Virus record (IMG/VR): IMGVR_UViG_3300046804_002239
Location: 1-25,518 of that record
Strand: one strand, 5' to 3'
DNA length: 25,518 nt
Source of the DNA: a virus
Positions 10,828-18,678 of this stretch are shown here, piece by piece. The notes under the pieces are model-generated. The model searched no databases and was not told the origin of the DNA. It saw only the letters and a list, made by a program, of their open reading frames with translations. Every line of letters starts with the position of its first letter. Position 1 is the stretch's first letter. The position numbers and the translations under genes are program-made.

Positions 10828-11066
10828 CAAAACAATTCTTAGCTGAATTCGTTGACGGCGGCGTAGGTTGCATGAGAGACGATTGCATGATTACTGAGAA
10901 TGGGCCTAGTATGACTACGGCGGCTTATTACCCGCCAGTTTACAACAAGCAGGGAATAAACACAAACCCTGATATGAATATTACAACACATCACCGCCGT
11001 TGTCTTTCGTGCGGTCAAACTTGGACGGAGAGTTATCAAAATGGTATTAGACTTAGTAGCACCTGA
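10824..11066 (+). CDS. Small zinc-ribbon-like protein
   Basis: I do not recognise this 80-residue protein. It has two Cys pairs, C16-x4-C21 and C60-x2-C63 (RRCLSCGQTW), arranged like a small zinc ribbon. The second pair followed by GQTW resembles zinc-ribbon knuckles. The start overlaps the FkbM gene stop (ATGA), and the 3' end overlaps the deformylase gene by 26 bases. That packing supports a real gene. Function is unknown. Confidence 0.65.
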   Translation: MTKQFLAEFVDGGVGCMRDDCMITENGPSMTTAAYYPPVYNKQGINTNPDMNITTHHRRCLSCGQTWTESYQNGIRLSST

Positions 11067-11661
11067 ACATCCTATCTTGAAGCAGACGCTAGAGGAATTT
11101 GATTTCAAAAATCCTCCTGTAGATCCTATCGAGCTTGCGAACAACTTAATTGAGACAATGGCTGCAAGGCGTGGCTTAGGTCTTTCTGCTAGCCAGTGTG
11201 GCTTGCCGTACCGCGTATTTGTATTGTGGTCGGAAACGCCAACGGTATGCTTCAATCCTCGTATTATTGATACGTCATCGGAAACTAATCTATTGGAAGA
11301 GGGTTGTTTAACTTTCCCACACCTCTTGATTAAAATTAAGAGACCTTCCGCGATCAAAGTTCGTTTTGAAGATGAGCGAGGACAAACGCATACAGAGAAA
11401 TATATTGGAATGACATCACGTGCTTTCCAACATGAGCTAGACCATTTGAATGGTGTAGTGTATACGGCAAAAGCAAATAAGATTCACCTAGATCGCGCTC
11501 TCCATCAGCAAAAGATTTTAATGCGTCGCCTTAAGCGCGGAGAAGTGTACTACAAGCCGGATAACGTATTGACGGAAAATCAATTGAGAGAAGCACAAGG
11601 TCAGTTGTCCATCTCTACAACTGAGAGAACCGTACAGTTAGCTGATTCTATAACATTATGA
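11041..11661 (+). CDS. def: Peptide deformylase
   Basis: This enzyme removes the formyl group from the N-terminal methionine of new proteins. All three motifs are present: GLGLSASQ (45-52, the GxGxAAxQ motif), EGCLTFP (87-93, metal ligand Cys89) and QHELDHLNG (130-138, metal ligands His131 and His135, catalytic Glu132). The 206-residue length includes a C-terminal extension of about 50 residues beyond the usual helix. Deformylases are recurrent auxiliary genes in marine phages, where they are thought to support rapid processing of newly made proteins. A ggagag ribosome site lies 8 bases before ATG 11041. All catalytic residues are intact. Confidence 0.93.
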   Translation: MVLDLVAPEHPILKQTLEEFDFKNPPVDPIELANNLIETMAARRGLGLSASQCGLPYRVFVLWSETPTVCFNPRIIDTSSETNLLEEGCLTFPHLLIKIKRPSAIKVRFEDERGQTHTEKYIGMTSRAFQHELDHLNGVVYTAKANKIHLDRALHQQKILMRRLKRGEVYYKPDNVLTENQLREAQGQLSISTTERTVQLADSITL

Positions 11662-12434
11662 AGATCCTCATATTTGGCAAAGGTAAGGTAGGTCAAGCTA
11701 CCTCACATGCTCTTTCTAGAGGAGTAGATAACACCTTCGGATGGGTAGATCCAAAACTAGGATTGGATGTGCCAGATGTCAATGATTATGAAGTTGTAAT
11801 ACTATGCGTCTCTAGCTTAGAGAACGGACCATACGATCATTCTGCAGTCAATCAATGCCTATTGCGACTTCACGATGAACATTTCAAAGGGATTGTTGCT
11901 ATTCGTAGCACTCTATCACCTGAGTGGAGTGGGTTGAAAACGTTTGACCACCTCAGAATGATACACTTTCCAGAGTTCATGAAACAACACGGTGACCACA
12001 TTAACGACAAGCCTTGGGTTGTAGTGTTGGGTGGTAAGAAAGACGAGACTGAAGAATTCAGCAAAGTATTACACCTATCCGGCTATGCCAAGAAGGACTT
12101 GGTGATGCATGTTGACTTTATACAGTCAGTTATTATAAAATTAGGCCAGAATGGTTTCTTAGCCACCAAAGTGGCCTACTTCAATATGATAGCCAAGTTA
12201 TGTCAACAGTACAATGTTGATTACGGACCTGTACAGTGTGGAATTACAGTCGATGATCGTATTAACGCTAAGCACACGAACGTTCCTGGTTGGGACGGTA
12301 TGTTGGGGTACGGTGGTCATTGTTTACCAAAAGATGCGCTTGCATTGGCAATGGTTACTAAAGGGTGTGAAATTATGGGAAGCGTTATAAGTTATAATGG
12401 AAGGATTCGGAATGAAAAGATACAGACTCAGTGA
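11658..12434 (+). CDS. Nucleotide-sugar 6-dehydrogenase (UDP-glucose/GDP-mannose type), short form
   Basis: This is an NAD-dependent enzyme that would oxidise a nucleotide sugar to the uronate. The Rossmann loop GKGKVG is at 7-12, RSTLSP at 83-88 matches the family ksTvxPG motif, and PEFMKQ (105-110) matches PEFlxeG. The central helix with Lys161 and Asn165 (KLGQNGFLATKVAYFN) follows. The catalytic Cys222 is in GGHCLPKD. The protein has 258 residues against about 390-430 for bacterial enzymes, because most of the C-terminal nucleotide-binding domain is absent. The active site is nevertheless complete, so the short form may be specialised rather than broken. Start and stop overlap both neighbours. 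Confidence 0.85.
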   Translation: MKILIFGKGKVGQATSHALSRGVDNTFGWVDPKLGLDVPDVNDYEVVILCVSSLENGPYDHSAVNQCLLRLHDEHFKGIVAIRSTLSPEWSGLKTFDHLRMIHFPEFMKQHGDHINDKPWVVVLGGKKDETEEFSKVLHLSGYAKKDLVMHVDFIQSVIIKLGQNGFLATKVAYFNMIAKLCQQYNVDYGPVQCGITVDDRINAKHTNVPGWDGMLGYGGHCLPKDALALAMVTKGCEIMGSVISYNGRIRNEKIQTQ

Positions 12435-13305
12435 GATGTTTTTTAGCTTCCAAGGCGAGGCCTTGCACGCTGGAAAACCGAGTGTGTGGGTGAGATGGTT
12501 TGGGTGCAACTTAGAATGTAATGGGTTCGGGCAAAAAGATCCTAAAGATCCTTCCACATACGTTTTACCATACCAGACGTTTGATATTAGTAAAATTCAA
12601 AAAGTAGAAGATCTCCCTGTATGGGATTATGGGTGCGATTCTTCTTATTCATGGTCTGCGAAGTATAAACATCTCGTTCACGACAAGACGGCTGAAGAGA
12701 TTGTAGATCAATTAACCGACATGATGAGACATCCAACCAATCCAGATGGATTGTTTGTTCACCCAATTACACATCAGGATACTATGATGTGTTTTACAGG
12801 TGGTGAACCTATGATGTGGCAAAAGGGATTAGTTGCAGTGTTGGATGAGTTTGAGAAACGTGGCAACATGCCAAGACTTGTTACTATTGAAACAAATGCT
12901 ACACAGAAAGTACATGAAGTATTTCATTCGTGGATGGATCGTAATTATAGAGGTGTAGACATACATTTCGCTATGTCGCCTAAACTATTCACCGTATCTG
13001 GTGAAAAGGACGCTGTTAACCCTGATATTATTCAATCATACATTGAGTTTGGTTACAGTCATGTGTTAAAGTTTGTATGTAACGGCACAGAGGAGAACTG
13101 GCAAGAGCTAGAAGCTGCCGTTAAGGCCGTACAGCAAAAGACAGGAAACTTGTTGCAGAATGTGTGGGTAATGCCAGTTGGTGCAACGAAGGACCAACAA
13201 GAACAACAACAAGTGGCTGACATTTCGATTGAGGCTATGAAACGTGGTTATAATGTTGCGACGCGCAACCATTGCTACGTGTTTGGTAATGTGATAGGAA
13301 AATAA
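12412..13305 (+). CDS. queE: 7-carboxy-7-deazaguanine synthase (QueE), radical SAM
   Basis: QueE converts 6-carboxytetrahydropterin to 7-carboxy-7-deazaguanine. The 297-residue protein starts with the typical FFSFQGE region and contains WVRWFGCNLEC. The third cluster Cys lies in YGCDSSYSW, and FTGGEP is the usual SAM-binding GGEP motif. The presumed iron-sulphur ligands are C32, C36 and C75, so about 38 residues are inserted between the second and third Cys. I chose ATG 12412, with ggaagga six bases upstream. An in-frame ATG at 12397 adds five residues but has no ribosome site. The gene begins inside the end of the dehydrogenase gene. Confidence 0.9.
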   Translation: MKRYRLSEMFFSFQGEALHAGKPSVWVRWFGCNLECNGFGQKDPKDPSTYVLPYQTFDISKIQKVEDLPVWDYGCDSSYSWSAKYKHLVHDKTAEEIVDQLTDMMRHPTNPDGLFVHPITHQDTMMCFTGGEPMMWQKGLVAVLDEFEKRGNMPRLVTIETNATQKVHEVFHSWMDRNYRGVDIHFAMSPKLFTVSGEKDAVNPDIIQSYIEFGYSHVLKFVCNGTEENWQELEAAVKAVQQKTGNLLQNVWVMPVGATKDQQEQQQVADISIEAMKRGYNVATRNHCYVFGNVIGK

Positions 13306-13306
13306 G

Positions 13307-13747
13307 ATGTATTACTCTAGCCAAGACTGTTTACACGACATCGACGCAATAGCACATGAAGTAATTGCTGCCGGCGAGCCAATCGATTATATTGTAGGAA
13401 TTGCACGAGGTGGTTTGATACCGGCTGTACTCCTTTCACATCGCTTAGAATTGCCGATGAGAAGTGTATCGTGGTCTACCTTTCATTCCGACCAGATGAG
13501 AGAACATGCTCTTGATATAGCAGACGATATCAATGAAGGTAAGAAGATCTTATTGGTCGATGATATTTTAGATTCAGGCAGAACATTACAAGAGTTATTG
13601 GAAGACTGGCAGTGTGAAAGAAACAAAATTAAAATAGCTGTTCTTTTACACAACACGGATCAAAAGATTGCGCCAGACTTCTGTGGGAGGAAGTTTAGTA
13701 GAACAGATGCACCGGAGTGGATTGACTTCTGGTGGGAAAAGGCATAA
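13307..13747 (+). CDS. Purine phosphoribosyltransferase (guanine/xanthine type)
   Basis: This is a type I phosphoribosyltransferase of 146 residues. It has the N-terminal IVGIARGGLIPA loop (30-40) and the PRPP-binding loop LLVDDILDSGRT (82-93). The C-terminal EWIDFWWE resembles the base-stacking Trp segment of xanthine-guanine phosphoribosyltransferase. It would join a purine-like base to PRPP. The gene lies between queE and queD with 1- and 3-base gaps, so it is probably part of the same operon. The standard preQ0 pathway has no such step. Ordinary purine salvage and charging of a deazaguanine base are both possible. Confidence 0.85.
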   Translation: MYYSSQDCLHDIDAIAHEVIAAGEPIDYIVGIARGGLIPAVLLSHRLELPMRSVSWSTFHSDQMREHALDIADDINEGKKILLVDDILDSGRTLQELLEDWQCERNKIKIAVLLHNTDQKIAPDFCGRKFSRTDAPEWIDFWWEKA

Positions 13748-13750
13748 TAA

Positions 13751-14251
13751 ATGAATACACCAATTGTATACAAATACACAAGTACGAAAGAATATCACGA
13801 TGCATTTCCATGTGCATACAGACAATGGAAAGCTGACAGCCACTGTAATTTAATTCACGGTTATAGTTTTTCAATGAAGTTCTATTTTGGAACAGACAAT
13901 CTTGATGCTCGTAATTGGGCAGCTGATTATGGTGGCCTCAAAGAACTGAAGGGTGTATTGGAAAGCCAGTTTGATCACACTCTGTTAGTATCAGAAGATG
14001 ACCCTCATCTTGATCTTTATATGCAAATGCAAGAACGCAACATTGCTAAATTAACTATTCTGCCAAAGGTAGGATGTGAAGGGCTTGCAGATCAGCTGTA
14101 CAAGTACGTTAACGGCGTATACATTCCAGATTATTGGGGACCAGGTGAAGCTGAGCGTCTGTGGTGCTATAGGGTTGAAGTTCGCGAGACACAAAGCAAT
14201 ATGGCTTACAGAGAAGGTCATCGTGAGTGGAATGAGGACTTGTTTGCGTAA
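13751..14251 (+). CDS. queD: 6-carboxytetrahydropterin synthase (QueD family)
   Basis: QueD makes 6-carboxytetrahydropterin from dihydroneopterin triphosphate. The 166-residue T-fold protein retains the first zinc His (H16), the catalytic Cys (C32, in HCNLIHG), the second zinc His (H36), the catalytic pair Asp75-His76 (FDHTLLV) and the pterin-anchoring Glu110 (GCEGLA). The usual HGH motif reads HGY here, so the third zinc ligand is Tyr38 unless a nearby His (H31) substitutes. It is longer than E. coli QueD (about 120), with an insertion around 86-105 and a C-terminal tail. It sits between the phosphoribosyltransferase and a small gene, two genes before FolE. Confidence 0.88.
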   Translation: MNTPIVYKYTSTKEYHDAFPCAYRQWKADSHCNLIHGYSFSMKFYFGTDNLDARNWAADYGGLKELKGVLESQFDHTLLVSEDDPHLDLYMQMQERNIAKLTILPKVGCEGLADQLYKYVNGVYIPDYWGPGEAERLWCYRVEVRETQSNMAYREGHREWNEDLFA

Positions 14252-14467: not shown

Positions 14468-15211
14468 ATGACTAACCAAAACACAATGACATTTACAGTA
14501 AGCGCTGATGCAGCAGTGACCGAAGGGACATATATGATGTCCGCTATTATTAGAGACCGACTAAAGAAAGCTAATAAGCGGTTTAATGCTAATGATAACA
14601 TCTCTGCGTTTATTGGAGAAAACGAACTTCCAATGTTGGTGGATGAGTTGACAGGTAAGTTTCAGGGAGTACTTGAAACATTGGTAATTGATACAGCGAA
14701 CGATCCTAACTCGAGAGACACAGCTCGACGCCTTGCAAAGATGTATGTGTATGAGTTGATGGCTGGTCGTTATGAGCCTCCTCCAACTGTCACGGCTTTC
14801 CCTAATGAAGGACCAGAACGGTTCGAAGGAATGTTGGTTGTTAGAGCCGAGTTGGTATCGATGTGTTCTCATCACCACCAACCAGTAAAAGGAATTGCTA
14901 TCATTGGTATTGTACCTACCGGTGAAGTAATCGGGTTATCCAAATACGCACGGATAGCTCAATGGTGCGCTCGTCGCGGCACACTACAAGAAGATCTCGC
15001 AAATCAAATAGCAAAGGAGATCATGAAATCGACAGATACAGAAAACTGTGCTGTCTATATCCAAGCAACCCACGGTTGTATGGAGAACCGCGGCGTAATG
15101 GCACATTCGAGTCTTACTCAGACTTGTGTTGTACATGGACTATTCCACAACGATTCTGTCAAAGCTGAATTTATGTCCCACGTCAAAATTCAGTTGATGG
15201 GAAATCGTTGA
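14468..15211 (+). CDS. folE: GTP cyclohydrolase I (FolE)
   Basis: FolE converts GTP to dihydroneopterin triphosphate, the first step of both folate and 7-deazaguanine synthesis. The 247-residue protein has the zinc and catalytic set: C133, H135 and H136 in SMCSHHHQP, plus H202 and C204 in ATHGCMENRGV. It also has GLSKYARI and the expected N-terminal helical part. It is slightly longer than E. coli FolE (222). A ggag ribosome site precedes ATG 14468. The stop codon lies inside the -35 box of the next promoter. With queD and queE just upstream, all steps from GTP to 7-carboxy-7-deazaguanine are covered. Confidence 0.94.
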   Translation: MTNQNTMTFTVSADAAVTEGTYMMSAIIRDRLKKANKRFNANDNISAFIGENELPMLVDELTGKFQGVLETLVIDTANDPNSRDTARRLAKMYVYELMAGRYEPPPTVTAFPNEGPERFEGMLVVRAELVSMCSHHHQPVKGIAIIGIVPTGEVIGLSKYARIAQWCARRGTLQEDLANQIAKEIMKSTDTENCAVYIQATHGCMENRGVMAHSSLTQTCVVHGLFHNDSVKAEFMSHVKIQLMGNR

Positions 15212-17197: not shown

Positions 17198-17218
17198 TTA
17201 TTTTTGAAAGGCTATATT

Positions 17219-18109
17219 ATGTTTGAAAGATCGAGTGTAAACGATCCGATTAAGTTTTGTCACATCTCCCCTACCCCTCATCTTGAGGAATATACAAAGC
17301 ACAACGGGGCGCATTTGTTATTAGCGCACCTCGTTGAGCAAGATCCAGATTACATGGAATTCTATGCTAATTTGGATGACGGTCGCACTAAGATTATGGA
17401 CAACTCAGCATTCGAGATGTTCAAGCAAGGCCGGCCGATGTATGACTCTAATAAATTGATTGAAATGGGTAAAGCCTGTAAGGCTGACGTCATTGTGATG
17501 TCCGACTACCCAAAAGAACCGTGGACAAAGACACGCGACGCTGCAATCAATATGATACCAGCTCTTAAGGATGCTGGATTCGGTACATTTTATGTCCCTC
17601 AAAGCAATCTCAGCGACATTGACGGTGCCCTCAAATCATTTGACTGGGCATTGGGCAACAGTGAAGTTGATCTGATTGGGGTGTCGATTCTGACTTGTCC
17701 AATTGCATTTGGTGTCGATGAAAGCTCCTATGGTGAAGGAAAGCGTAACGATGCGTATAAGATGCAGCGGTTCCTTTCTCGTTGGAAGATGTTTATTGAA
17801 CTAGATCGTGCAGGCCTTTTGAGCGCGCACGCGATTAAAAGATTCCATTGTTTGGGAATGACTGATGGACCAAACGAGATAGAGCTGTTGACTTCTTGTG
17901 GGTTTGGGAAGTATATTTACTCATGGGACTCTAGTGCTGCTGTTTGGGCAGGATTGAACGGAATTCAATTCGACGGATCGCCATCAGGACTCCGTAACGG
18001 CAAGTTCGAGCACGAAGTTGACTTCGATTTCAAGGGTGAACATCTAGGCACTACTAACCTTCAAGTTATTAACAATATCAATTACATTAATAAATTATGC
18101 AGCAAGTGA
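17219..18109 (+). CDS. dpdA: DpdA-like tRNA-guanine-transglycosylase-family protein
   Basis: I read this 296-residue protein as a phage DpdA, the transglycosylase that swaps guanine in DNA for a 7-deazaguanine base. Supporting features are the MDNSAFE motif (60-66), in which Asp61 would match the conserved TGT Asp, and the barrel-strand segments VIVMSDYP (91-98) and FYVPQS (124-129). Others are LIGVSI (152-157), RFHCLGM (208-214) and YSWDSSA (234-240), where Asp237 could be the nucleophile. The deazaguanine synthesis genes are about 2 kb upstream. I chose ATG 17219, with gaaagg eight bases upstream. A TTG at 17204 is unlikely. No classic C-terminal TGT zinc site is evident. Confidence is moderate that it is DpdA and high that it is a gene. 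Confidence 0.68.
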   Translation: MFERSSVNDPIKFCHISPTPHLEEYTKHNGAHLLLAHLVEQDPDYMEFYANLDDGRTKIMDNSAFEMFKQGRPMYDSNKLIEMGKACKADVIVMSDYPKEPWTKTRDAAINMIPALKDAGFGTFYVPQSNLSDIDGALKSFDWALGNSEVDLIGVSILTCPIAFGVDESSYGEGKRNDAYKMQRFLSRWKMFIELDRAGLLSAHAIKRFHCLGMTDGPNEIELLTSCGFGKYIYSWDSSAAVWAGLNGIQFDGSPSGLRNGKFEHEVDFDFKGEHLGTTNLQVINNINYINKLCSK

Positions 18110-18678
18110 TAGCTTTGACAGGCCCAAAGGGCAGTGGCAAAGATACAGTAGCAGATATGATCTATAGACATTATACCCAGGAGTGGTATACTGTTACTCG
18201 TATCGCGTTTGCCGATCCGATCAAGGATATGGTACAACACATATTCGATCTCAATCCCCACGACACAACTCAATACGACTTGTTTAAACGCACGACGTTG
18301 AACTATCAACTACCAGGCTATCTTTCACATACTGTTGAAGGACGTCATGTGGTTCGTGAGATTGGTATGTTGATGCGGTCGTACAATGAAAAACAATTTA
18401 CAGATTATGTGGAAAGTAAATTTGCACAAGGGTTTGTATCGCGCCGTCTTTTTGTTGTAACTGATCTTAGATTCGATAACGAATACACAATGCTAAGAAA
18501 GCATAATGCAAAGATCGTTAAAGTTACTCGCCCTGACTACCATTACGATGGTCATATAACAGAGCGTGGTTTCGATGATGAGCTTGTTGACTTTGTCATT
18601 GATAATAAAGGATCATTGATAGAATTGCAGTCTAAGGTTAAGGACATGATGAATAAATTTAATGAGGGGTGGAAATGA
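18097..18678 (+). CDS. Deoxynucleoside monophosphate kinase (T4 gp1-like)
   Basis: This P-loop kinase phosphorylates dNMPs for phage DNA synthesis. The 193-residue protein has Walker A GPKGSGKDT (9-17), ADP.IKD (FADPIKDMVQ), REIGMLMRSYN and VTDLRFDNE, the pattern of the T4 gp1 and related dNMP kinase group. DGHITERGFDDE near the C-terminus is the lid/His region. T4 gp1 is 241 residues, so this is a shorter version. It overlaps the DpdA-like gene by 13 bases and the next gene by 4 bases. The position suggests a nucleotide-supply group with the dCTP deaminase/dUTPase-like gene. Confidence 0.85.
   Translation: MQQVIALTGPKGSGKDTVADMIYRHYTQEWYTVTRIAFADPIKDMVQHIFDLNPHDTTQYDLFKRTTLNYQLPGYLSHTVEGRHVVREIGMLMRSYNEKQFTDYVESKFAQGFVSRRLFVVTDLRFDNEYTMLRKHNAKIVKVTRPDYHYDGHITERGFDDELVDFVIDNKGSLIELQSKVKDMMNKFNEGWK

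Follow-up and report, generated by a model that had tools for sequence, protein, structure and literature searches.

The 25,518-base metagenomic virus contig analysed here (the window, of T4-like make-up) encodes, within an operon for 7-deazaguanine synthesis, a type I phosphoribosyltransferase (PRTase) that probably acts as a guanine-type (6-oxopurine) enzyme, returning to GMP the guanine expelled from DNA by DpdA and completing a cycle through GTP and FolE. The association of this PRTase family with queE is real and general; it is not a matter of chance, since the pairing is found repeatedly in many independent contigs and phages.

The PRTase and its operon

FolE, QueD, and QueE make 7-carboxy-7-deazaguanine (CDG) from GTP, as established for these families elsewhere. 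Enzymes of the TGT/DpdA type exchange a deazaguanine for guanine in DNA, releasing one free guanine per modified site. All four genes, the set that defines a phage 7-deazaguanine DNA modification cluster, are found in the window (Table 1), and the phage probably replaces guanines in its DNA with a similar, protective base. The window DpdA resembles the annotated DpdA of Flavobacterium phage immuto (26%, 1e-7) and keeps TGT-like motifs (alignment A2), while a Pfam search gave no match and a PDB search only chance matches; its listed start is a TTG, with an in-frame ATG at 17219. No QueC was seen in the 25.5-kb window. A peptide deformylase-like gene (11041-11661) is also kept near que genes in loci L005, L006, L008, and Rhizobium phage L013, and a short UDP-glucose/GDP-mannose dehydrogenase-like gene (11658-12434), overlapping the start of queE, occurs in L005 too.

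Table 1. Genes of the operon and active-site elements of the PRTase in the window.
Feature	Position	Strand	Evidence
queE (start perhaps 12415)	12397-13305	+	QueE-like phrog_2076, E 9.4e-46
Type I phosphoribosyltransferase (146 aa), subject of this work	13307-13747	+	PF00156, E 7.2e-20
PRPP-binding loop LVDDILDSGRTL (within residues 82-94)	13550-13588	+	aligned with E. coli Gpt D88-D89-L-V-D92-T-G-x-T
Codon of N7-contact Asp89	13571-13573	+	Gpt alignment
Asn116, at the position of the O6-contact Lys (Gpt K115) of 6-oxopurine PRTases	13652-13654	+	alignment
C-terminal purine-stacking tail WIDFWWE (W138-I-D-F-W-W-E144)	13718-13738	+	aligned with Gpt W134-I-E-Q-P-W-D140
queD (6-carboxytetrahydropterin synthase)	13751-14251	+	PF01242, 5.9e-14; phrog_2389, 3.5e-36
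folE (GTP cyclohydrolase I)	14468-15211	+	PF01227, 2.4e-38
DpdA-type DNA-guanine transglycosylase	17204-18109	+	match to annotated immuto DpdA; alignment A2 motifs
Deoxynucleoside monophosphate (dNMP) kinase, overlapping the end of dpdA	18097-18678	+	PF21448, 9.3e-22; phrog_139, 8.3e-44

The PRTase reading frame runs from an ATG to a TAA, 1 base after queE and 3 bases before queD. The protein scores 71.3 bits against the PF00156 gathering cut-off of 26.3, and its PRPP loop (VDDILDSGRT) carries the two acidic residues of that family. Its nearest solved sequence is the Pyrococcus purine PRTase 1vdm (2e-13). An AlphaFold (AF2) model is confident (pLDDT 91.8, pTM 0.87), with 1vdm, Sulfolobus HGXPRT, and H. 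pylori XGHPRT as the best Foldseek matches. In the alignment with E. coli Gpt, D85/D86 and D89 of the window enzyme correspond to Gpt D88/D89 and D92, and W138 and E144 to Gpt W134 and D140. Two marks of 6-oxopurine PRTases, the N7-contact Asp (Asp89) and the C-terminal stacking Trp (W138), are present; the third, the O6-contact Lys, is replaced by Asn116, and the protein stays below the NCBIfam equivalog cut-offs of Gpt (NF006613, 46 of 138 bits) and Hpt (TIGR01203, 39.9 of 150 bits). Because of the missing Lys, the enzyme is described here as one that seems to work like, rather than to be, a standard guanine PRTase, and we infer the base it uses from its sequence. The position of the gene, its short gaps, and its company of QueE, QueD, FolE, dNMP kinase, and DpdA had been proposed in the initial annotation, together with an intact PRPP loop and a purine-stacking tail. 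The frame coordinates, the profiles with the immuto DpdA match, and the Gpt alignment bear these points out, the change from Lys to Asn116 having escaped that annotation.

Linkage with queE and DpdA across phages

A scan with PRTase patterns (PRPP loop included) and context profiles yielded 88 PRTase loci, whose fetched stretches hold queE in 74, folE in 58, and queD in 39 cases. As this search pattern contained the PRPP loop, Asp included, the conservation of Asp in these loci was rejected as evidence, and two further scans were made. Viral loci picked by queE alone carry the PRTase in 41 of 80 cases. A third scan, with a Streptomyces PRTase (TubE/ToyH-type, see below) as the query, gave 80 loci, with queE in the flank of 50 (34 of 57 once non-redundant). 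In 37 out of the 169 loci that hold both genes, fewer than 100 bases separate the two (open-frame distances, with some redundancy); they adjoin each other in the clade of the window and in a 37%-identical relative. All locus counts given here mix related contigs, many loci being cut off by flank ends, and E-values from profiles built in this analysis refer to small sets.

Among named isolates, the PRTase family forms six lineages, all with queE: Cellulophaga ST, immuto, BUCT-ZZ01, PA5oct, Campylobacter CPt10, and Brevundimonas StAshley. This figure covers named isolates; weaker matches occur in other unannotated scaffolds. A match to the window QueE occurs in only 153 of 50,697 phage records. 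The association with deazaguanine genes in related phages, on which the initial annotation had made its proposal depend, is clearly present. An exception is the unannotated faecal scaffold MT835497, the PRTase of which is nearer to archaeal enzymes.

Several variants of this arrangement were observed. One group of PRTases carrying a C[AS]xxYN motif (L035, L036, L037, L026, L075, L342, and L343) has flanks without queE, and the contigs of L035 (126 kb) and L036 (59 kb), both carrying the PRTase, gave no QueE match when searched whole. In the immuto PRTase (L003:5977-6372), ~20 residues are missing between the first segment involved in PRPP binding and the PRPP loop; in the numbering of the window protein, the gap follows residue 54. 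In StAshley (L427:641-5456), ribonucleotide reductase (RNR) beta, RNR alpha, dNMP kinase, folE, and the PRTase are consecutive, with queE ~8.5 kb off. In the BUCT-ZZ01-like clade, two glycosyltransferase-like families (L002:7909-9249 and 10900-12063), the second of them found in ~40 loci, accompany queE, the PRTase, and folE, and might add a sugar to the DNA deazaguanine. PDB searches with the co-occurring families returned nothing informative.

In the queE-selected set, 21 of 40 loci with the PRTase have a DpdA-like gene within the fetched flank, and whole-record searches found one in most of the larger contigs; guanine should therefore be released in those infections. The window-type DpdA profile (A2) matches immuto, Cellulophaga phi13:1, and an ORF of the Firehammervirus CPt10 (E 1.2e-31), and weakly StAshley. 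A longer TGT-like family (A3, ~530 aa, near queE, without Pfam or PHROG match, e.g., L425:3986-5608 and L064:715-2346) was found in 20 of the 46 records that were searched over their full length, and also in PA5oct, where its member EST35_0316 is annotated as a hypothetical protein; it is likely a further DpdA subfamily. In BUCT-ZZ01, an unannotated TGT-like protein (UTS52034, L002:9245-10495) with the motifs DSGGLQ, HVLGIG, and YDST matches phrog_10773 (unknown function), has relatives in L016, L019, and L020, and probably represents a third type of DpdA in phages. Both types are putative DpdAs, recognised through their motifs and through weak matches to profiles. The PRTase was also considered as a marker of DpdA-free phages, an idea rejected once A3 and the third type were recognised in seemingly DpdA-free loci.

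The PRTase step is not essential, as four phages with a close DpdA (Aeromonas Ahp1, Vibrio D479, Vibrio Bakedbeans, and Rhizobium RHph_I1_18) have no PF00156 gene. None was found either in CAjan, 9g, nt-1, Dp-1, and HVTV-1, the DNA of which is only partly modified, at about 0.1 to 32% of G (PMC6884629). The dNMP kinase adjoins DpdA in phages without the PRTase too. Of 20 records with the PRTase, the contigs being incomplete, 16 gave no QueC and only three had one above the cut-off; most PRTase phages seem to lack it. Given this incompleteness, CDG as the end product of the pathway is a guess.

Proposed guanine recycling and alternative roles

In the proposed mechanism, FolE, QueD, and QueE of the window phage would make CDG from GTP, and DpdA would swap a deazaguanine for guanine in the finished DNA, freeing one guanine per modified site. 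The PRTase would then join the freed guanine to PRPP to give GMP, and kinases would convert this to GTP and dGTP, available to FolE and to replication. Such recycling would save purine and clear poorly soluble guanine that would otherwise pile up. It is supported by the 6-oxopurine PRTase fold that the model suggests and by a PRPP loop, an N7-contact Asp, and a stacking Trp that all appear intact. By simple arithmetic, a 200-kb genome like that of the window holds ~83,000 guanines; with every G replaced and 100 progeny, ~8 million guanines would be released per cell, or ~14 mM in 1 fL. The guanine load would thus be large where replacement is heavy. Crippen et al. reportedly found in 2019 that Firehammervirus has 100% of its dG replaced and that its nucleotide pool held no detectable deazaguanine nucleotide; this genus has the PRTase, and the combination fits an enzyme serving recycling. 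The absence of the PRTase from the partly modified CAjan, 9g, nt-1, Dp-1, and HVTV-1 counts in the same direction. Against recycling, hosts usually possess Hpt or Gpt, and the change from Lys to Asn116 makes the base pocket differ from that of the standard guanine enzyme. The four phages with a close DpdA and no PF00156 gene also count against it, as do the loci, about 15% of those selected by PRTase motifs, in which the flank holds no queE. Salvage of guanine after DpdA, one of two roles suggested in the initial annotation, is nonetheless the best-supported reading, and a probable one, through the deazaguanine-gene association and Asp89; the identity of the base falls short of certain because of Asn116.

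The other suggested role was to charge a deazaguanine to a nucleotide. TubE, a PRTase of tubercidin synthesis encoded among queD-queE-folE homologues, couples PRPP with CDG but does not accept 7-deazaguanine (PMC6112128); TubE/ToyH had been overlooked in the initial annotation, which stated that a nucleotide form is not required by the known pathway. Streptomyces clusters were collected via their QueD genes, and ten contain a PRTase near queE, taken as TubE/ToyH orthologues by gene order. One (L230) reproduces the tub order exactly (queD-queE-folE-GMP reductase-PRTase-UbiD-Nudix), and another (L228) has the toyocamycin-type partners GMP reductase, adenylosuccinate lyase, and adenylosuccinate synthetase. 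At the position of Gpt Asp92, which contacts N7, all ten have Gly. Asp is found there in 41 of 41 queE-selected phage PRTases, a set not selected for Asp, in 80 of 80 found with the Streptomyces query, and in the PRTases of PA5oct, CPt10, and StAshley. The N7 of guanine interacts with this Asp; 7-deazaguanine has a carbon there, often with a side group, and Gly therefore makes room. The stacking Trp is kept in 40 of 40 queE-selected PRTases with a residue at the W138 position. The O6-contact position is N, K, or R family-wide, with Asn in 80 of 92 members of one set and 29 of 40 of the queE-selected set, and this Asn is common to the phage family and the Streptomyces enzymes. The tree groups the Streptomyces enzymes in a separate clade (98/89), with the phage PRTases outside. 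A kinship of the phage PRTases with TubE/ToyH, considered on account of the shared Asn and queE neighbourhood, was rejected by the tree and the Asp/Gly position. As a separate observation, two Streptomyces queD-queE-folE clusters contain an ORF with a match to the profile of the short phage DpdA (L237:7075-8232, minus strand, E 8e-16; L251:10938-12041, plus strand, E 2e-17).

These data bear directly on a TubE-like role, in which CDG or another deazaguanine would become a nucleotide, and kinases and ribonucleotide reductase would deliver a dNTP to be polymerised ahead of, or alongside, the action of DpdA. The precedent of TubE, the shared Asn116, the rarity of detected QueC, whereby the pathway may end at TubE's substrate CDG, and the StAshley PRTase adjoining folE, dNMP kinase, and RNR speak for it. 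It is nevertheless quite improbable, and the charging route of the initial annotation is disfavoured, given Asp in all scored phage members against Gly in the Streptomyces deazapurine enzymes, the separate clade of the latter, and the presence in the same genomes of DpdA, which acts on polymerised DNA without need of a nucleotide. The nearby dNMP kinase, invoked by that annotation for the dNTP route, lends no support, its place beside dpdA being unspecific to PRTase phages. That the PRTase charges CDG despite Asp89, a deazaguanine dNTP entering replication and DpdA completing a two-route replacement of guanine, is very doubtful.

General purine salvage, supplementing host salvage of guanine, hypoxanthine, or xanthine to supply replication after host DNA breakdown, with no specific link to DpdA, would fit the fold and motifs, the ~40% of ToyH-type-query loci without queE in the flank, and the 126-kb and 59-kb PRTase contigs without a QueE match. 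This role is unlikely in view of the tight and recurrent queE linkage, with adjacency in the window clade and its 37%-identical relative, and of named lineages that are all queE phages although so few phage records match this QueE. PRTase folds have also been recruited as regulators elsewhere (PyrR, GfcR), and the window PRTase has weak NCBIfam matches to both; a non-catalytic, PyrR-like or nucleotide-sensing protein controlling the que genes is extremely unlikely, however, as the catalytic positions are conserved in highly diverged members.

The main open paper on phage deazaguanine leaves salvage and phosphoribosyltransferases unmentioned (PMC6884629), and the fate of the guanine expelled by base exchange seems to have been previously unaddressed. 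That a PRTase keeps turning up in these operons points to recycling as a component of the modification system, and would predict where guanine replacement is heaviest. The single residue at the N7-contact position, Asp or Gly, may also tell guanine recyclers apart from builders of deazapurine nucleosides, a marker that would be useful for annotating phage and antibiotic clusters.

Comparison with known systems

The window PRTase shares with E. coli Gpt (XGPRT), 1vdm, Sulfolobus HGXPRT (4z1o/4zfn), and H. pylori XGHPRT (7kl6) the fold, the PRPP loop with its N7-contact Asp, the Trp stacking tail, and the Mg-binding acidic residue. It differs from these 6-oxopurine PRTases by Asn116 in place of the O6-contact Lys, by scores far under the Gpt and Hpt cut-offs, and by being encoded inside a queE-queD-folE operon. 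With TubE/ToyH it has in common the company of folE, queD, and queE, the Asn at the O6 position, and a Trp-containing tail. It bears Asp89, in contrast to their Gly, and lies outside their clade, and none of their partner genes UbiD, GMP reductase, and Nudix was seen next to the phage gene. Compared with the phage 7-deazaguanine modification system (FolE-QueD-QueE-DpdA, PMC6884629), the window holds the same biosynthetic genes and DpdA, shows no QueC within its 25.5 kb, and possesses an extra PRTase in the operon.
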